Below, piece by piece: positions 2,611-61,405 of a stretch of 64,000 bases of DNA. Both the position numbers and the translations under genes were made by a program. The notes under the pieces are model-generated. The model searched no databases and was not told the origin of the DNA. It saw nothing but the letters and a program-made list of their open reading frames with translations. Numbering within the stretch: position 1 is the first letter of the stretch; every line of letters starts with the position of its first letter. This DNA comes from Rhizophagus irregularis (lineage: Eukaryota; Glomeromycota; Glomeromycetes; Glomerales; Glomeraceae). The DNA is taken from NCBI RefSeq assembly GCF_026210795.1, contig NC_089460.1:868001-932000 (forward strand), written 5' to 3'.

Positions 2611-3815
2611 AATGGTGTAGTTAGCTGAAAAATTCAGCCAAAGACGCAGTAAATTTTCGGTTAATAACACCTAACCGAAAAAAATTTATGTTAATTTTGA
2701 ATATTTTATTGGTTGGTTTAACATCTAACTATTTTCGGCTGAATGATATTTTTGGCTAAATACACTTTTTTAAATAATAGTATAGTAATTAGCCAAAATA
2801 TCCAAATAGCAGTCAATATAAAATAATGATAAAATTTTATTTATTATAGAAAACAAGAAGTACATATATATTAAATATTACTATATATACTTATTTTTGA
2901 ATAGTACATTATTTTTAATTAAATAAAACTACAAAATATTTGTTATTTTCAACTCATTTATTTCTGTCCAATCATACTTTAATATTAGATTTTTAGTAAT
3001 TTAATTGTAAAAAAGAAATTTTTTTAATATTTAATTGTTCTTTAAATTAATGAATAGTTTATTTAACTATTAAAACTATAATAATAATTGAACTTTATAA
3101 TACAATTATACAAATAAAATAAAAAAAGAAATCTTTTTTAAAGGATTTGAATTATATTTGAAAATATATATACTGTATTTTTATTTTTATTTTTTATTAT
3201 ATAATGGCAAAAATATTTTTGTTTTAATTTAAAGTCTTATACTGTTCAACTATCTTTGACAAATTTCAAGTTTTTTGCATTATTTTTATTTTTAATATAC
3301 TAATTTTTAGCTAAGATCTAACTCAAAAAATAAAAAGCATTTAAAAAAATATTTTAATAAATACTTAGAGACTGACAAGAAGTTATATATTCAATATTTA
3401 GTTTAAAGATTATTTTGTATATTACATTTTACCTGAAATTTTTAACTTTAACCAATTTTAGGCCAGAATTAAGAAAATTTTGGCCAGAATTATGGATTCA
3501 AAAATCATAATTTAGACAATTAAACAAGTTTAAATTGATTTTAAACTTTACAAATGTATTATATATTAGAAAAGATGTTATTGATTATAATAAAGTGAAT
3601 TAGGAGGTTACATAAGCAATGACTACTATTTGGATATTTTAGCTAATTATACTATTATTTAAAAAAAATGTATTTAGCCAAAAATATTTAGCCAAAAATA
3701 ATAGTAGATATTGAACCAATAAAATATTCAAAATCAACATAAATTTTTTTGGCTGAATGTTATTAGCCAAAAATTTACTATGCCTTTAGCTGAATTTTTC
3801 GGCTAACTACACTAT
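2611..3815. mobile_element. Non-autonomous element with about 200-bp inverted repeats
   Basis: Positions about 2611-2815 recur in inverted orientation at about 3620-3815. The left outer end reads GTGTAGTTAGCTGAAAAATT; the right end, reverse complemented, reads GTGTAGTTAGCCGAAAAATT. The arms contain many AGCCAAAA/TTTTGGCT words. The central 800 bp is AT-rich without an open frame. I could not settle the target duplication or superfamily. Confidence 0.75.
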
Positions 3816-13888: not shown

Positions 13889-14887
13889 AGTGCTTCTAAC
13901 AGATCAGTTCAGACTAGATTCAGCTTAATTCTGAACCAATTTAATTTTTATTTTAATAGATCTGATTTGATCTGAATCTAATCAGATTTGGTTTAATTTA
14001 ATTCAAATCTGATTTAGATCTATTTGAATCTGATTTGAATCTAATCTGAATCTGGTTCAGATCTAATTCTTGTTCTAGAAAAAGAAAGGAAATGTTAATT
14101 ATATTTCTTAAGTAAAAAGAAAAAAATAAAAATAAAAGAAACGAACTTACTATAGTTCATTCTTTTAAATTCTGGTCATTTTACGTTCAGGTTTCCTAAA
14201 AAAAAAAAGGAAATGTTAATTATATTTTCTTAAGTAAAAATAAAAAAAACTTTAAAAAAAAGGAACGAACTTACCAATTACCATAGTTTTTTTTTAAATC
14301 CTAATTATTAACAACTTTATTCATTCAGATTCTTAAAAAAAAAAGAAAGGGAATGTTGATTATGTTTCTTTAAGTAAAAAGAAAAAAATAAAAATAAAAG
14401 AAATGAACTTACCATAGTTTATTTTTTAAATTCTAATCGTTTAACTTTGTCTATGTTCAAGTTTTTTTTAAAAAAAAGAAAGAAAACGTTAATTACATTT
14501 CCTTAAGTAAAAATAAAAAAAATTTAAAAAAAAAACGAATTTACCATAGTTTGTTTATTTTTTTTAAATCCTGGTCGTTAGGCTTCATTCATCTAGACTT
14601 TCTAATAAAAAAAAGGAAACTATTAATTACGTTTTCTCAAGTAAAAATAACAAAAAAAAGAAATGAATTTATTTAGTTCGTTCTTTTAAATCTTGGTCGT
14701 TTAGCTTTATTTGTTTATTCAAAAAAAAGGTTTTTTAAAAAATAAAAATAAATTTGATTTGAATCTGTTCAGATCGGATTTTCTTGTGTTATAATCTGAT
14801 CTACAGATCAAAATTTTGAAAACTAAATCAGATATAACTCAGATCAAATCTGCAGATCCAGATCAGATCAGATTTTTTTTGAAACAC
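13889..14887. mobile_element. MITE with 11-bp target duplication (CAGATC-word type)
   Basis: Flanks TAGCTTTGAGT (13878-13888) and TAGTTTTAAGT (14888-14898) agree at 9 of 11 positions. Ends read AGTGCTTCTAACAG and, reverse complemented, GTGTTTCAAAAAAAATC. Both subterminal zones (13905-14075 and 14750-14875) consist of CAGATC, GAATCTGATT and AGATCTGA words in inverted arrangement. The centre is occupied by a separate 5-copy tandem repeat. No coding capacity. The ends and the 11-bp duplication match 3959-4401 and 30333-30723. Confidence 0.7.
14086..14740. repeat. Five-copy tandem repeat, unit about 120-140 bp
   Basis: Each unit has GGAAATGTTAATTATATTTC, then AAGTAAAAA with an A-rich run, then GAACTTACCATAGTT and TTAAATYCTGGTCGTTTA. 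Copies start near 14088, 14208, 14349, 14484 and 14617, drifting in length mostly through the A tracts. It fills the loop region of the surrounding MITE, so it probably expanded after that element formed. Confidence 0.8.
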
Positions 14888-20104: not shown

Positions 20105-22575
20105 ATCGTCCTATTTATAAATTTAAAAATCATCAATTAATTAATAAGAAAATCGTTAGCGTTCTACTGCGTTGATTTCTCGATTGAAAAATCAACTATA
20201 AATCATAATTAAAAAAGACAAATCAATTAATTAATAAGAAAATTGTTAGCGTCCTGCGTTGATTTCTCGATTGAAAAATCAATTATAAATCATAATTAAA
20301 AAAGACAAATAAATTAATTAAAATTAAGAAAATCGTTAGCGTCCTACTGCGTTGAATTCTTGATTGGAAAATCAACTATAAATCATAATTAAAAAAAACA
20401 AATCAATTAATTAAAATTAAGAAAATCGTTAGCGTCCTACTGCGTTGATTTCTTAATTGACAAATCAACTATAAATCATAATTAAAAAAGACAAATAAAT
20501 TAAAATTACGAAAATCGTTAGCGTTCTACTGCGTTGATTTCTCGATTGAAAAATCAACTATAAATCATAATTAAAAAAGACAAATAAATTAATTAATAAG
20601 AAAATCGTTAGCGTTCTACTGCGTTGATTTCTCGAGGAAAATCAACTATAAATCATAATTAAAAAAGACAAATAAATTAATTAATAAGAAAATCGTTAGC
20701 ATTCTACTGCGTTGATTTCTCGAGGAAAATCAACTATAAATCATAATTAAAAAAGACAAATCAATTAAAATTACGAAAATCGTTAGCGTTCTACTGCGTT
20801 GATTTCTCGATTGAAAAATCAACTATAAATCATAATTAAAAAAGACAAATCAATTAATTAATAAGAAAATCGTTAGCGTTCTACTGCGTTGATTTCTCGA
20901 TTGAAAAATCAACTATAAATCATAATTAAAAAATCAAATAAATTAATTAATAAGAAAATCGTTAGCGTCCTACTGCGTTGAATTCTCAATTGGAAAATCA
21001 ACTATAAATCATAATTAAAAAATCAAATCAATTAATTAAAATTAAGAAAATCGTTAGCATTCTACTGCGTTGATTTCTCGAGGAAAATCAACTATAAATC
21101 ATAATTAAAAAATCAAATAAATTAATTAATAAGAAAATCGTTAGCGTCCTATTGCGTTGATTTCTCGATTGAAAAATCAACTATAAATCATAATTAAAAA
21201 ATCAAATAAATTAATTAATAAGAAAATCGTTAGCGTCCTGCGTTGATTTCTCGATTGAAAAATCAATTATAAATCATAATTAAAAAAGACAAATCAATTA
21301 AAATTACGAAAATCGTTAGCGTTCTACTGCGTTGATTTCTCGATTGAAAAATCAACTATAAATCATAATTAAAAAAAACAAATCAATTAATTAAAATTAA
21401 GAAAATCGTTAGCGTCCTACTGCGTTGATTTCTCAATTGACAAATCAACTATAAATCATAATTAAAAAAGACAAATAAATTAAAATTACGAAAATCGTTA
21501 GCGTTCTACTGCGTTGATTTCTCGATTGAAAAATCAACTATAAATCATAATTAAAAAAGACAAATAAATTAATTAATAAGAAAATCGTTAGCGTTCTACT
21601 GCGTTGATTTCTCGAGGAAAATCAACTATAAATCATAATTAAAAAAGACAAATAAATTAATTAATAAGAAAATCGTTAGCATTATACTGCGTTGATTTCT
21701 CGATTGAAAAATCAACTATAAATCATAATTAAAAAAGACAAATCAATTAAAATTACGAAAATCGTTAGCGTTCTACTGCGTTGATTTCTCGATTGAAAAA
21801 TCAACTATAAATCATAATTAAAAAAGACAAATCAATTAATTAATAAGAAAATCGTTAGCGTTCTACTGCGTTGATTTCTCGATTGAAAAATCAATTATAA
21901 ATCATAATTAAAAAAGACAAATCAATTAATTAATAAGAAAATCGTTAGCGTTCTACTGCGTTGATTTCTCGAGGAAAATCAACTATAAATCATAATTAAA
22001 AAATCAAATAAATTAATTAATAAGAAAATCGTTAGCGTCCTATTGCGTTGATTTCTCGATTGAAAAATCAACTATAAATCATAATTAAAAAGACAAATCA
22101 ATTAATTAATAAGAAAATCGTTAGCGTCCTGCGTTGATTTCTCGATTGAAAAATCAATTATAAATCATAATTAAAAAAGACAAATCAATTAAAATTACGA
22201 AAATCGTTAGCGTTCTACTGCGTTGATTTCTCGATTGAAAAATCAATTATAAATCATAATTAAAAAAGACAAATAAATTAATTAATAAGAAAATCGTTAG
22301 CGTTCTACTGCGTTGATTTCTCGAGGAAAATCAACTATAAATCATAATTAAAAAATCAAATAAATTAATTAATAAGAAAATCGTTAGCGTCCTATTGCGT
22401 TGATTTCTCGATTGAAAAATCAACTATAAATCATAATTAAAAAGACAAATCAATTAATTAATAAGAAAATCGTTAGCGTCCTGCGTTGATTTCTCGATTG
22501 AAAAATCAATTATAAATCATAATTAAAAAGACAAATAAATTAAAATTACGAAAATTGTTAGCGTTCTACTGCGTT
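20105..22575. repeat. 28-copy tandem array, about 90-bp unit, with internal hairpin
   Basis: Each unit reads GAAAATCGTTAGCGTYCTAC, TGCGTTGATTTCTCGATTG, AAAAATCAACTATAAATCAT, AATTAAAAAAGACAAATMAA and TTAATTAATAA. GTTGATTT and AAAATCAAC can pair across CTCGATTGA to form a stem-loop. I count 28 GTTAGC landmarks at a mean spacing near 90 nt. Variant types (with or without CTA before TGCG, CTCGAGG forms, AAATCAAAT forms) recur in the same order in blocks, showing higher-order duplication. The array fills the gap between the two divergent genes of the CACTA element. Confidence 0.95.
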
Positions 22576-33909: not shown

Positions 33910-33925
33910 AATATAGTATAAAATC
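33910..33925 (+). promoter_or_regulatory. Possible TATA element of the micro-exon gene
   Basis: ATATAGTATAAAATC lies about 60 nt before the ATG at 33980, in an otherwise GC-poor leader ending in AAAATCAAA just ahead of the start codon. The position is plausible for a core promoter; nothing else supports it. Confidence 0.35.
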
Positions 33926-33979: not shown

Positions 33980-34986
33980 ATGAAATTCAATATTTTCCTT
34001 CTATTATCAACTATTTTTGTTGCTTTTGTTGCCGTCACTTTAGCAGCGCCACTTGAACCTGCCTCTAAATCTGACGTTACTCCGGCTGTCCATCCTGGTA
34101 AATCTTACAACAAATCAATATTCATTATTGTTTTGTAAAAAAAAAAATATTAACTTAATTTTCGTTTTGTTTTATTTTATAAATAGATGGATGTAACTAT
34201 CATTACTATTATTATTAATTTATTGTTTTTGAAAAAAATATTAACCATTTAATTTTCATTTTATTTATTTATTTATTATTTATTTTAATTAATAAATAGG
34301 CTGTAAGTATCATTCGTCATCATTATTATAATTAATATTTACAATATTATTTTTGAATATGTTGTTGACCGTTAATTTTCATTTTTTATTTATTTATTTA
34401 AATAAATAGGTTGGTGTAAGTATTATCATAATTAATATTCATCATTATTATTTTTGAAAAAAAAAAATATTGTTAATTTTCGTTTTTTCTTATTTTATTT
34501 TAATAATAAATAGGTGGTACGTATCATTTATCATTATTATAACCATTATTTTTTGGAAAAAAAATGTTAATTGTTAATTTTCGTTTTTATTCATTTAATA
34601 ATAAATAGTGGGGTTTGTTAGTAAGTATCATTTGTCTTTATTATTACAATTAAATATTTATCATTTTGAAAATATTAATATACTATTTATTGATTATTGA
34701 TTTTTTTTTGTTTAAATAATAAATAGCCTGTAAGTATCATTCATCATTATTATAATTGATATTTTATTTTATGTTTTTTTCGGGGAGATATTAACTGTTA
34801 ATTTCATTTTTTATATGTTAATAAATAGGCCGTAAGTATCATTCATCATTATTATAATTATTTAAATTTTGATTATTAATTTATTTGTTTTAAATAATAA
34901 AAATAGGCTATGATCTTATTATCACTCATAAGTTACTGAATCACTATAATTACCAAGCAATTGTTATAATTAATTTCAATATTTAA
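33980..34986 (+). CDS. Micro-exon gene for a small secreted Cys-rich peptide
   Basis: Exon 1 (33980-34097) encodes 39 residues with an evident signal peptide: MKF, a hydrophobic core IFLLLSTIFVAFVAVTLA, and a likely cut before APLEP. Seven candidate micro-exons follow: 34187-34192, 34300-34302, 34410-34415, 34514-34516, 34609-34620, 34727-34729 and 34829-34831 (6, 3, 6, 3, 12, 3, 3 nt). The last exon runs from 34907 to the stop at 34984-34986. Each is preceded by AAATAG and followed by GTAAGTATC or a variant, and all eight introns (75-107 nt) are phase 1. Full splicing gives 77 residues with the core DGCCWCVGFVTCRYD after the propeptide-like APLEPASKSDVTPAVHP. Four Cys codons are completed across junctions. 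No family is recognised. The alternative is direct splicing from exon 1 to the last exon, also in frame, with the repeats as intron filler. Signal exon is strong; micro-exon use is inferred. Confidence 0.6.
34187..34906 (+). repeat. Array of mutually similar introns, about 100-bp units
   Basis: The units share a 5' block (GTAAGTATCATTCATCATTA, then TTATAATTAATATT), a middle with ATATTAAC or TTGTTAATTTTC resembling a branch point, and a 3' block (TTTATTTAATAAATAG). Between the 3' block of one and the 5' block of the next lie 3-12 unshared bases, the candidate micro-exons. The pattern fits tandem duplication of an intron plus mini-exon unit. Confidence 0.8.
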
Positions 34987-35043
34987 TATATATTTTAATA
35001 AACTGGTCTAATCATTAGTTTTTTTCTCATTAAGTAATATTAC

Positions 35044-38347: not shown

Positions 38348-40344
38348 ACCGCAACTCTAACTCTATTCGTGAGGGTAATATTAAAAAGATACCGTAACTT
38401 AACATTTATGTAATTTTAATATTTCGGTAAATTTTTATTAATTTTATGCAAGAAAAATATTAAATCTAGGTATATTATAATAACATAGTATTACTTTTTT
38501 TAATTCTAAATAAAATCTAATGTCTTAAAATAATAATAATAATAATGTAAATTTAAAGATAATAAATGTTGAGATAATATCGGGATTTAAATTTTCGAGA
38601 TTAGATTTGTCAAGATTGTGAACGTCTATCAAAGGGATTAAGGGAATACATTCTCAGAGTCTGAATATTTAACCAATCAGTTCATTTAGTTCATTTTCAA
38701 TATCTCCGACCCATTTCGGATTAAAGAAATCATCTAAAAGTAGAAGAATATAATCACAAAAAGAAATTGTTTTTTTTTATCACAAATAATTTTTAATACA
38801 ATATCTCTCTGTTATGTAGATGCGGTTATATTGCCAAAGATGGTCGAGCCGAGCCTAAAAAACTGCCAAGAATTCCAAAAGAACACAATGGACAACTTTT
38901 TTTGTGATCTCCTTTTTTTTCAATTTTTAATACAAATATGAAGAAAAAAAATTGTCTCTGAGCTAATAAGTTATTATAAAGTTTCTTGGCATTTTCACCT
39001 TGTAGATTCGGCGACTATTTTTGGAAATTCATTCGCAATTATATAATTATATAAGAATTATTAAAAAATTATAGAAAGGAATTATATTAAAATGAAAAAA
39101 GAGCTCAGTTTATATAGGATTCTTGGCAATTTCCTTTTATTTTTAAGACCATCAATGGAATTTACCTTTTCATTGTAATCGTATTAACACGAATTATTTA
39201 ATATTTTAGAAAGGAATTCAAACATTATAAGAATAAACACGGTAAATTAAATATAATTAATGATAGCGAATAATAATGAATTTTTATAAGAGTCATTTTT
39301 AGGACTTTTACATTTTTTTTCCCATAGAAAAAAAAAGCTAAGAATGTCATATGATTTAATATCAAACATTATCCCTATTATAGTGCTAATTTTATTTATC
39401 GGGACTATCAATTAATCCAATATAAGAAATTATCCGAAAAATAACATTTATCCGGATAAATTAATCATTCGAATATTGCCAAGACCGTACAGAAATGGTG
39501 TTGGGTCCTTTGCGGATCGTGTAGATTATTAACGTTAACATTTGATAACCCAAATAATTATGTAATAACATGTTCAAAGAACTTTCGAATCTTATGAATC
39601 TTATTATAGAATGGAATTAAATAAATTAATTAAAAAGCGATAGAACAATTAAAAGTGACGGAAATCATTAATCGATCATCCGACTTCAACTTTTAGCCAC
39701 AAGCAATTTTTAGCATTTTCCAAAAAAATTTTTTTTCGGTTTTTACCGAATAATTTTATCACGCGATTAATCAATATAATTTTGTAAATTACGATGATCA
39801 AGAAAAAAAAAACCTCTTTTTTAGTGTATCATTACTAAATAAGTGGTTCATAAAGTATTCATAATTTGTAATACCAACAATCATTTAATTTAGCCTTTTT
39901 TTTTCAATTCTTTTCTTGATTCCTTTTTACGGCCGAACCTTTCAAGATTTCTACCGACCTTTTTGCTATAGGAATTTCCTAATTGTCCATTTCATTATGC
40001 TCGTTCGTACAACGGTCATCATATATCTTGACGAATAAAATAAGTCTCCTTATTATATATGAAATGTGGAAATTTTTTTTTCCCTTTAAAAGTAAAATGT
40101 ATCGTTAATTCGAAAATGGAAATTTTTTTCAACAACATTTTTGGAAGATCACCGACAAGTCAGCCTGGATTTTTTGTAACAATAATAACAACAATACGGT
40201 TGAAATATACATTCTTTAATTCGAACTTGTAATATTAATGTTTTAATGTGTGTGTATAGTATTTTATAATTAAATGGATGTAAATGACCGAAAATACATG
40301 AAGCCATCATTTATTTGTAAAAAAAGAAAACAAGTGTATTTGGT

Positions 40345-40700
40345 GATATAATTGCGGCGGGATTACTTGTAGTGATAATACTTGCGGCGGTATTACTTGC
40401 GGTGATTATACTTGCGGCGGTATTACTTGCGGTGATATTACTTGCGGCGGTATTACTTGCGATATTACTTGTGGCGGTGATATTACCAATGTTTAACTGA
40501 CAATACCTTATTACTTATATCAATATTACCAATGCATTACTTGTCAATATTATCGATATTACTGACATTATTTACATTACTTGCAAAATATTATCGACAT
40601 TTACCAGACATTACTTATATTACTTGACAAATATTATCGACATTACCAAGATTACTTGCCAATATTATTTGACATTACCAATATTATCTCAATATTACAA
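40345..40700. repeat. ATTACTTGCGGCGGT minisatellite grading into ATTACTTGACAATATT repeats
   Basis: From 40345 to about 40480, a 12-15-bp unit of the form TATTACTTGCGGCGG alternates with TGATATTACTTGCGG, a local G/C island in very AT-rich DNA. It then shades into ACATTACTTG/AATATTACCA repeats up to about 40700. Confidence 0.8.
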
Positions 40701-51139: not shown

Positions 51140-52110
51140 TTTTTTTTTACTTCGAATTTTTTTTTTTTTTTTTTGTTTAATATAAACAATAACTTTTTAA
51201 GTATATATAATATATTAGATTTTCAATTGTGCATAATAATATAAAGTGTATAAATAAAAAAAATTTTTTATTTTTATTGTTATTTTAAAAAAAAATAAAA
51301 TATTATTATAATAATAATTTTTAGTAATATAAAGTAATAAATAATAAAAAGTGTAATATAAAATATTTAAAAAAAAAATTTTTTTTTTTTTATTTCATAC
51401 AACAAAAAAAAATATTAATAAAAAGGCAACAGTCTTTGCACTTTTCAGAGGAGGAAAAAATTTTTTTGATAACGAAAAAAAATTTTTTTTTTCATTTTTT
51501 TTTCTTCCTATTGACCTTTTTATTAAAACAATTTTTTTTTTCGTATGTCTCTTTAAAAAAAAAAAATTAACAAAAAAAAAAATAAATACTCCAAAAAAAA
51601 ATTCTTATTCTCATATTTTTTTTCCCTAAAAAAAAAAAGGTTAAAAAGAAGTAAGCTTAACTACTCTCAGAAAAAAAAAATATTTATATTTTTTTTTTTT
51701 TTAAAAAAAAATACCTTTTTCAATAGTTTTGATTACTTTTTTTCTTATCTTTTTTTTTTCGTATGTTATTTTTTACGAAATCTCTTTTTTAAATAACTTG
51801 GTTTTTTAATGACTTTAAAGACCAAATACTTTTTTGAATAGTTTATTTTTATCTCGTCTCGCTTTTTCTTTTTAAAAGAAACTCTTTTATATACGAACGC
51901 TTTTTATAACTTTTATTATCTTCTTTTGTTAAAGCTGAGTTTCAAACCGGCAAAGAAAAAAATCAACAAACAAAGTAAAGAAACAACCAATCAAATCAAA
52001 TCAAATCAATTTTTTTAATTAAAGGAATTAATCAGATTTAACTTAGGAAACGATAACAAAAAAAAAAAACAAATCATTTTTTCAAAACGACTTTTTTATT
52101 AACGACAAAA
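51140..52110 (+). promoter_or_regulatory. Homopolymer-rich upstream region of the zinc-finger gene
   Basis: The 970 bp before the ATG contain at least a dozen T or A runs of 9 or more, most densely at 51370-51760. It ends in a purine/A-rich leader with AATCAAATCAAATCAAATC at about 51987-52008. Such poly(dA:dT) tracts commonly exclude nucleosomes at fungal promoters. No specific factor site could be assigned. Confidence 0.4.
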
Positions 52111-53213
52111 ATGGTATATAATAATATTCCAATCGAATTCAATGACCCATCGTCTTTTCATGAGATTTGTTCTATGGCGACCCCTATTTCAATCATCTCA
52201 AATTCAACAACCTATAATCATCATCATCATCAAAAAGAAGCCCATTTCGAAAATTATCTTATGGGTGGTCCAAGAATAAATTCTTTCACTGAATTACTCG
52301 CTGATAATATGATGGAATATGGTTTAATGACACAAGCCACGACCTGCTCATCACCTGAGAGCGATTATATGTACAACATGGATGATTCAAAAATAAAGTT
52401 GGAGTATTCCGAACCTTTTGATATATCATTCCTTAATATGTCAAGAAATTTAAGTTCTGATTCTTGCCCTGATCTTACTAATTGTAATCAAAATACTCCA
52501 ATTACTCCTATCGATTCACCTCATGATCAATCACCTATTTTAACTTCTACTTGTTTATCATCAATCTCTTCACATCATCAATTTCAACAACATAATAACA
52601 TTATGAGTGAAGAAAGAGATATGATGACTAATCAAGTTATGATCGATTCTCCACCATCAACGACAACGAAACGTAGAGGTCGTAGATCTACCTCTTCTAC
52701 AACAAGTTCAATTTCAGGGATGCAACTTCAAGAACCACAAGATTACCAACTCATGGGATCATCTTTACCTTCTCCACCACAAAAAACTACCGGTAAATCA
52801 AGAGGCAGACGTATGACAAACAAGCCAACAAAACCTGGAACTAAATCCTTCGAATGTACTTATGCCGGTTGTGGTAGAGTTTTTAAAAGGTCGGAACATT
52901 TAAAGAGACATATCCGATCAATACATACCCTTGAGAGACGTAAGTATAAATAGAATCACCTCTTTTAACCAATAAGTTGAAAATTTTTCTAACATTTTTT
53001 TTTCTTTTTTTTTTGTTTTTTTTAGCTTTCCATTGCCCGCATCCACATTGTACAAAAAGATTTTCAAGATCTGATAATTTAAGTCAACACGTACGCGTGC
53101 ATCGACCAAATGGAAAAGAAAAGAACGCATCTACAAGAACGTTTAGTAATTTCACTCCATTTTTGCAAACTTACCAACAGACTGGTAGCCTTCAATCGTT
53201 ACAGCAACCTTAA
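52111..53213 (+). CDS. C2H2 zinc-finger transcription factor, Msn2/Com2-like
   Basis: Two exons (52111-52939 and 53026-53213) with an 86-nt GT-AG intron encode 338 residues. Residues 1-230 are low-complexity and Ser/Thr/Asn/Pro-rich, with a His run near 32 and a basic patch TTKRRGRRSTSS near 188, probably a nuclear signal. A second basic segment KSRGRRMTNKPTKPGTK leads into two C2H2 fingers. Finger 1 is FECTYAGCGRVFKRSEHLKR plus H-x4-H; finger 2 is PFHCPHPHCTKRFSRSDNLS with QHVRVH. Helix residues RSEHLKR and RSDNLSQ, with the TLER linker, are those of the Msn2/Msn4 stress-response regulators that bind AGGGG-type elements. Msn2 has C-x2-C fingers, whereas both fingers here are C-x4-C, as in several other fungal members, so the exact orthologue is uncertain. 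The intron separates the fingers at the ER|PF linker. Intact and alone in a gene-poor region. Confidence 0.88.
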
Positions 53214-61194: not shown

Positions 61195-61405
61195 GAAATT
61201 ATACTAATTAATTATTATCTAGTATAAAGAGGAAATTATAATACTAATTATACATACTAAATACTAATTATACAAATTATACGTACTAATTATACTACTA
61301 ATTATACGTACTAATTATACTAATTATACTACGTACTAATTATACGTACTAATTATACGTACTAATTATACTACCTAATTATACTACCTAATTATACGTA
61401 ATGAA
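61195..61405. repeat. ACTAATTATACGT minisatellite
   Basis: At least twelve copies of TACTAATTATACG/TACTACCTAATTATAC in direct orientation. TAATTA is a palindromic core. Confidence 0.85.

Follow-up and report, generated by a model that had tools for sequence, protein, structure and literature searches.

The stretch analysed here (the window) comprises 64,000 nucleotides (nt) of the Rhizophagus irregularis contig NC_089460.1 and corresponds to C32:868001-932000 in the genome that was searched for related sequences, which spans 146.7 Mb in 32 contigs. Between positions 33980 and 34986 it contains a gene predicted to encode a small secreted peptide, in which an exon with a signal-peptide-like N terminus is followed by seven tandem micro-exons and a last exon. 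The micro-exons listed below were placed both by a frame-blind scan and by the spliced-frame model, the introns by the spliced-frame model, and the last exon by direct reading and the spliced-frame model. The two flanking signals were read by eye.

33917..33923, plus strand: TATAAAA, TATA-box-like, 57 nt 5' of the ATG
33980..34097, plus strand: exon 1, 118 nt, with start codon, signal-peptide-like N terminus and spacer; stops past the first codon base (phase 1)
34098..34186, plus strand: predicted intron 1, 89 nt, donor GTAAAT
34187..34192, plus strand: predicted micro-exon 1, 6 nt
34193..34299, plus strand: predicted intron 2, 107 nt, donor GTAACT
34300..34302, plus strand: predicted micro-exon 2, 3 nt
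34303..34409, plus strand: predicted intron 3, 107 nt
34410..34415, plus strand: predicted micro-exon 3, 6 nt
34416..34513, plus strand: predicted intron 4, 98 nt
34514..34516, plus strand: predicted micro-exon 4, 3 nt
34517..34608, plus strand: predicted intron 5, 92 nt, donor GTACGT
34609..34620, plus strand: predicted micro-exon 5, 12 nt
34621..34726, plus strand: predicted intron 6, 106 nt
34727..34729, plus strand: predicted micro-exon 6, 3 nt
34730..34828, plus strand: predicted intron 7, 99 nt
34829..34831, plus strand: predicted micro-exon 7, 3 nt
34832..34906, plus strand: predicted intron 8, 75 nt
34907..34986, plus strand: last exon, 80 nt, with the peptide tail and the stop codon TAA (34984-34986)
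34997..35002, plus strand: AATAAA, polyadenylation-signal-like, 3' of the stop

The initial annotation had proposed seven acceptor/donor pairs enclosing 6, 3, 6, 3, 12, 3 and 3 nt, with every intron in phase 1 and the spliced message open to 34986. All of these coordinates proved exact, and the joined frame bears out both the phase and the open reading. In the spliced-frame model the eight introns measure 75-107 nt and follow each exon in phase 1, and all seven micro-exons begin at codon position 2. The predicted peptide of 77 residues consists of a hydrophobic N terminus, a spacer, a four-cysteine stretch, DGCCWCVGFVTC, and a 26-residue tail. The prediction of secretion rests on this hydrophobic N terminus, which is conserved in six family members.

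Chance placement of AAATAG-type borders in constant phase had been considered unlikely, and shuffle controls agree. The pattern AAATAG-N3..30-GTAAGTAT has 6 matches in the window, 5 of them in this gene, where shuffles give 0.06. A frame-blind scan of the gene stretch recovered the same 7 pairs, and dinucleotide shuffles gave a mean of 0.10 and 2 at most. Two parts of that argument do not hold. Three donors depart from the GTAAGTAT type, those of exon 1 (GTAAAT), micro-exon 1 (GTAACT) and micro-exon 4 (GTACGT), and the constant phase cannot be counted as independent evidence seven times over, since the units, each of ~100 nt, are related copies. The first frame-blind scan of the whole window also flagged 7 overlapping minus-strand candidates in a short tandem repeat at 61258-61374; when intron-sized gaps were required, the window gene was the only array on either strand of the window. 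Shuffles alone do not separate exons from a tandem repeat; paralogs do.

By its sequence, the window gene is a member of a family of at least six predicted arrays. A strict unit pattern had 10 matches genome-wide, all on C32, C29 and C21, and none in a backward control; the other three arrays lie on C5, C6 and C14. Exon 1 has DNA matches on C29 (84% identity) and on C4 (85%). The arrays on C32, C29, C21 and C6 were modelled from start to stop; the 3' end on C14 is unsettled, and the array on C5 is cut off. Taken as C32, C29, C21, C6, C14 and C5, the loci contain 7, 9, 16, 14, 10 and 6 micro-exons, or 62 in total. The commonest length is 3 nt (40 of the 62), and 59 are multiples of three; the rest measure 5 and 20 nt (C6) and 8 nt (C14). 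Phase 1 is kept throughout on C32, C29, C21 and C5. The micro-exon share of the coding nucleotides reaches 72 of 156 on C21. The family introns have a median length of 92 nt, and the branch motif [CT]TAAC is present in 35 of 66 of them, compared with 7.9 after shuffling. Six cysteines are predicted in each of the peptides from C29, C21, C6 and C14, and four in the window copy, in which the two additional micro-exons of C29 and its Cys-Cys last exon have no equivalent.

Three side observations concern the ends of this family. At C4:4174108-4177191 (L017) the exon 1-like piece stands alone, with no array. On C29 (L009:4374-4510) there is a second set of ends 3' of the first stop, consisting of a micro-exon TCC and a possible other last exon. 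The C5 array (L019) ends at six micro-exons, and a long, mobile-element-like reading frame occurs after position 3291.

When the 62 micro-exons are read in the spliced frame, they contain 0 stops and 29 cysteines. In two null models the inner bases were either drawn anew at intron base frequencies or permuted, and the terminal bases of every micro-exon stayed fixed, because splicing may dictate them. The nulls gave means of 14.1 and 10.6 stops and of 18.0 and 15.7 cysteines, and no run of 5000 reached 0 stops or 29 cysteines. The frame-blind scan of the six loci returned 54 acceptor-donor pairs, a few of which are absent from the final models; the length was a multiple of three in 50. Among the 3-nt exons found blind to frame, the second base is C in 23 of 36, whereas the introns contain 9% C.

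Comparison of the window gene with C29, its nearest relative, separates the micro-exons from the introns. Across introns 1-7 the two copies share 615 of 637 aligned sites (96.5%); there are 22 gaps, and 18 of these have lengths not divisible by three. In the seven micro-exons 11 of 36 sites have changed (Fisher 1.8e-7) and no length has, and the changes affect 5 of the 12 encoded residues and none of the cysteines. The pattern suggests that the peptide is undergoing diversifying change, that the introns have been homogenised, or both.

Database searches gave little for this family. Among five predicted proteins, four had no Pfam match at E 1 and the fifth had a match below the cut-off. A search of PDB sequences gave no match at E 10 for the C29 peptide and one meaningless match (E 9.1) for that of C6. 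Matches to a GY-type pattern outside the six loci (one on C9, one on C17 and two on C24) were rejected, as no Cys-type array accompanied them at the strict setting; the match on C9 belongs to an array of a second class.

This second class consists of predicted runs of single-codon exons and is unrelated in sequence to the cysteine family. The pattern ATAG-Nx-GTAAGTAT has 99 matches genome-wide with a 3-nt spacer (x=3), compared with 32 at x=4 and 34 at x=5. The x=3 matches include 25 in the six arrays; 53 of the remaining 74 were examined and 21 were left aside, 17 of them reading ATAGAAAGTAAGTAT. Together with four places from an earlier pattern, the 53 examined places made up 54 selected loci. 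Candidate arrays of the second class were found in 18 of these, as 23 chains with 372 tiny exons, of which 368 are 3 nt long, two are 6 nt and two are 1 nt. Phase-1 arrays of successive 3-nt exons are predicted at L035, L039, L040, L041, L044, L048, L055, L058, L063, L064, L067, L069, L070, L071, L073, L074, L075, L080 and L091.

The array at L039 (C7) spans the entire 4.1 kb examined. In the 369 exons that lie in adjacent runs, phase 0 has 5 stops, phase 1 has 1 and phase 2 has 35. When the exon order is shuffled within runs, 17.1 are expected for phase 1 and 25.1 for phase 2; the Poisson probability of one stop or none at 17.1 expected is 6.5e-7, relatedness of the arrays being ignored. The triplets TAG, TGA and TAA do occur as exons, and they are harmless because the exons are read in phase 1. 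The triplet itself is variable (0.15, 0.50 and 0.02 bits at its three positions), and conservation is seen at positions well beyond the searched borders, for example +13 (1.2 bits) and +14 (1.35 bits). The introns have a median length of 93 nt, and CTAAC is present in 162 of 332 introns, with a shuffled mean of 4.6.

A fresh array at C16:1444500-1448500 was picked after the initial analysis, solely on DNA similarity. It contains 35 predicted exons, 34 of them 3 nt long. Phases 0 and 1 are free of stops and phase 2 has 11; the shuffled-order expectation is 2.6 for phase 1 (P 0.017) and 7.2 for phase 2. A probe of two second-class units has at least 610 matches in the genome, and dense clusters on many contigs are found among the matches listed. 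The initial annotation had called consecutive 3-nt exons extraordinary for a fungus. That remark understates the case, as dozens in a row are predicted in the same genome.

At C2:18000-24900 (L040 and L090) and C13:1284800-1291200 (L058 and L089), single-codon arrays lie 5' of protein-kinase exons. The front of the C2 gene, by reading, has a 22-nt exon with the start codon and then a 24-nt exon, both in phase 1. The array that follows is predicted to have 47 exons of 3 nt and one of 1 nt, giving 188 coding nt in ~4.7 kb, and it leads in frame into the kinase exon. Omitting the 1-nt exon, or splicing exon 2 directly to the kinase exon, brings a stop at most 9 codons into the kinase exon. C13 has a similar front with the same predicted 1-nt exon (A) preceding the kinase exon, and this exon would set the kinase frame at both loci. 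PF07714 matches the downstream pieces at 2.5e-28 (C2) and 2.5e-29 (C13); the first 73-residue piece of C13 alone has no Pfam match.

Several observations weigh against reading these arrays as spliced coding exons, beginning with the fact that every splice junction is deduced from DNA sequence. In the window gene, 36 of the 234 coding nt come from micro-exons, only 3 of 8 introns contain the strict branch motif [CT]TAAC (a looser motif is found in 8 of 8), and joining exon 1 directly past all seven micro-exons leaves an open frame too. The window copy is without the terminal Cys-Cys of its relatives, and it may be a diverged or decaying family member. In the comparison with C29, 7 of the 11 micro-exon differences sit in the 12-nt exon; without it, 4 of 24 sites differ (P 0.012). 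The first broad search pattern gave 114 matches compared with 89 in its control and was of use only through clusters, from which the arrays on C5, C6 and C14 were found. In the C6 and C14 arrays, a single exon (5 or 8 nt) moves the phase to 0 at a late point. Weak borders occur (GTAAAT, GTAACT, GTACGT and GTATCT donors, and AAG acceptors in C29, C21 and C6), and the weakest were placed with the frame known; the frame-blind sets are free of that choice. The bases next to the splice sites (last T, first G) favour cysteine codons, and the nulls, which keep both, give 16-18 cysteines. The family loci are related, and their counts are not independent.

The second class has drawbacks of its own. Backward controls of ATAG-Nx-GTAAGTAT vary, with 45, 33 and 79 matches for x=3, 4 and 5. 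The chain finder is slightly biased to short exons, and the single remaining phase-1 stop sits in L070. One of the 47 exons of C2 has a weak donor, GTAATA; it was missed by the blind chain, which contained one stop without it, and was added afterwards. In C13, other sequence breaks up the array, and one unit has no AG acceptor.

Three other explanations were weighed with these points in mind. The simplest would have the whole of 34098-34906 removed as a single 809-nt intron, with exon 1 joined to the last exon and the inner borders cryptic or decayed. Exon 1 and the last exon are indeed phase-compatible with an open direct join, and duplication alone could yield tandem copies of an intron. Against this, the micro-exon frame of the six loci is stop-free with an excess of cysteines, the micro-exons have diverged more than the introns while keeping their lengths, and a direct join to the downstream exon of the C2 gene is out of frame; we consider a single intron improbable. 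It is less plausible still, to the point of being nearly negligible, that the arrays are satellite-like noncoding repeats in which splice-like borders surround a variable triplet by chance. The units are tandem and similar, and the abundance of matches to the two-unit probe would suit a satellite. Stop depletion is confined to phase 1, however, the variable triplet lies beside conserved flanks, and the frame runs into a kinase exon. The noncoding satellite was rejected on the depletion of stops in one phase.

The third explanation accepts the family and takes the window copy to be decaying, a 3' deletion having removed the exons with the last cysteines, so that the 25-residue tail is whatever followed. 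The relatives end in Cys-Cys, the two further micro-exons of C29 and the Cys-Cys start of its last exon are missing from the window copy, and the end of C29 finds a match in the downstream sequence. The frame of the window copy is nevertheless open throughout, and all seven borders and the four shared cysteines are kept. We regard decay as possible but doubtful.

The initial annotation had read the locus as a secreted-peptide gene of tandem micro-exons, and this reading gains strong sequence-level support from the six arrays, from their stop-free, cysteine-rich predicted frame and from the greater divergence, at constant length, of the micro-exons than of the introns between the two closest copies. 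The window gene very probably encodes a small secreted cysteine-containing peptide built from tandem phase-1 micro-exons, a layout that the second class would extend. Downstream of the signal exon, symmetrical phase-1 micro-exons, each one to four codons long, would specify the first part of the mature peptide. Each predicted intron would have its own donor, acceptor and loose branch-site-like motif. The introns are probably recognised by intron definition, and exon size would therefore matter little; they are probably removed successively, because the splice sites flanking a 3-nt exon can hardly be bound simultaneously. Arrays probably expand and shrink in steps of whole codons as similar introns are duplicated or recombine with one another, so that the frame would stay intact. 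As the window micro-exons are all symmetrical, skipping any subset of them would keep the frame, and variant peptides through micro-exon skipping are possible. The product is predicted to be secreted, fast-changing and cysteine-rich, which weakly suggests that it acts outside the hypha, on the plant or on microbes.

On balance, we also favour the view that codon-by-codon splicing is a regular gene layout in this genome, used for parts of secreted peptides and of kinases, with interchangeable introns of ~93 nt and recombination codon by codon. Each such intron would contribute a single codon, interrupted behind its first base, and a message would require dozens of successive splicing events, some of them spanning an exon of 1 nt. 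Recombination between near-identical introns would add, remove or swap whole codons without breaking the frame. This would be an extreme form of gene splitting and a route to changing proteins by whole codons at the DNA level, and proteins made from single-codon arrays would be unusually free to evolve. Consecutive one-codon exons are a hard test of how the spliceosome finds exons. If they are spliced as predicted, intron definition alone sustains dozens of consecutive junctions, down to an exon of 1 nt. Ordinary gene finders and read aligners would miss or break such genes, and the arrays could conceal peptides exported by a symbiotic fungus. To our knowledge, the second class, if transcribed as predicted, goes beyond any known kind.

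The nearest systems in layout appear to be the micro-exon genes (MEGs) of schistosomes and the bicycle genes of aphids. Excerpts of the Schistosoma reports describe MEGs as encoding small secreted proteins through very small symmetrical exons, with a fast-evolving mature part and with skipping that preserves the frame (PMC4350168, PMC4015677). The window gene resembles them in its very small symmetrical (phase 1-1) predicted exons, predicted secreted peptide and fast-evolving mature part. Unlike them, it is fungal and cysteine-rich, with micro-exons that are mostly single codons; the comparison concerns layout. MEGs are also marked by a signal peptide in their first exon, by isoforms arising from differential splicing and by having the greater part of their coding region in such tiny exons; the corresponding share here is 36 of 234 coding nt in the window gene and 72 of 156 in C21.

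Aphid bicycle genes, as portrayed in excerpts of their description, have ~17 exons per gene on average, with many unusually small internal exons that nearly all start from codon position 2, and encode rapidly diverging putative plant effectors (PMC9168663). The window micro-exons are likewise small and all begin at codon position 2, going by that partial account. They differ in that an exon is often one codon, and no sequence relation was seen by eye. Paired C-Y-C motifs are a feature of bicycle genes; by eye, the CYC motif is absent from the predicted family peptides. Six-cysteine knottin-like peptides are another point of comparison: the window copy has four cysteines and does not qualify, whereas C29, C21, C6 and C14 have six.

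Among filamentous fungi, the abstract and excerpts of a Trichoderma study report an RNA-supported 20-nt microexon in the transcription factor Xlr2, state that functional microexons were previously undescribed in these fungi and mention that microexons had been tested in Schizosaccharomyces pombe (PMC11121469). Judged against those excerpts, both cases concern microexons of a filamentous fungus; here they form arrays, are mostly 3 nt long and are predicted from sequence. For plants, the portions available of two reports describe in vivo splicing of exons as small as 1 nt and, in a rice transcript, microexons of 5 and 12 nt next to each other (PMC4674806, PMC8831610). The plant microexons in those portions are single or paired, whereas the Rhizophagus arrays are long, tandem and single-codon. 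No description of tandem single-codon exons, or of microexons in Rhizophagus, was found in the open-access literature searched, which mostly excludes subscription papers and preprints.

The window contains several other features. On the minus strand, 14079-14657 is a tandem repeat of ~134 nt with units that carry GTAAGTTC after ACTATG as well as T-rich stretches ending in AG; it is perhaps another array with longer exons. An 89-nt satellite of ~27 copies occupies 20132-22575, and a reading frame at 24021-24698 matches Transposase_21 (PF02992, 3.6e-8). A repeat of 15 and 30 nt with the unit GGTGATATTACTTGC lies at 40342-40486. A C2H2 zinc finger (PF00096, 3.2e-6) is encoded in a 298-codon reading frame at 52057-52953.
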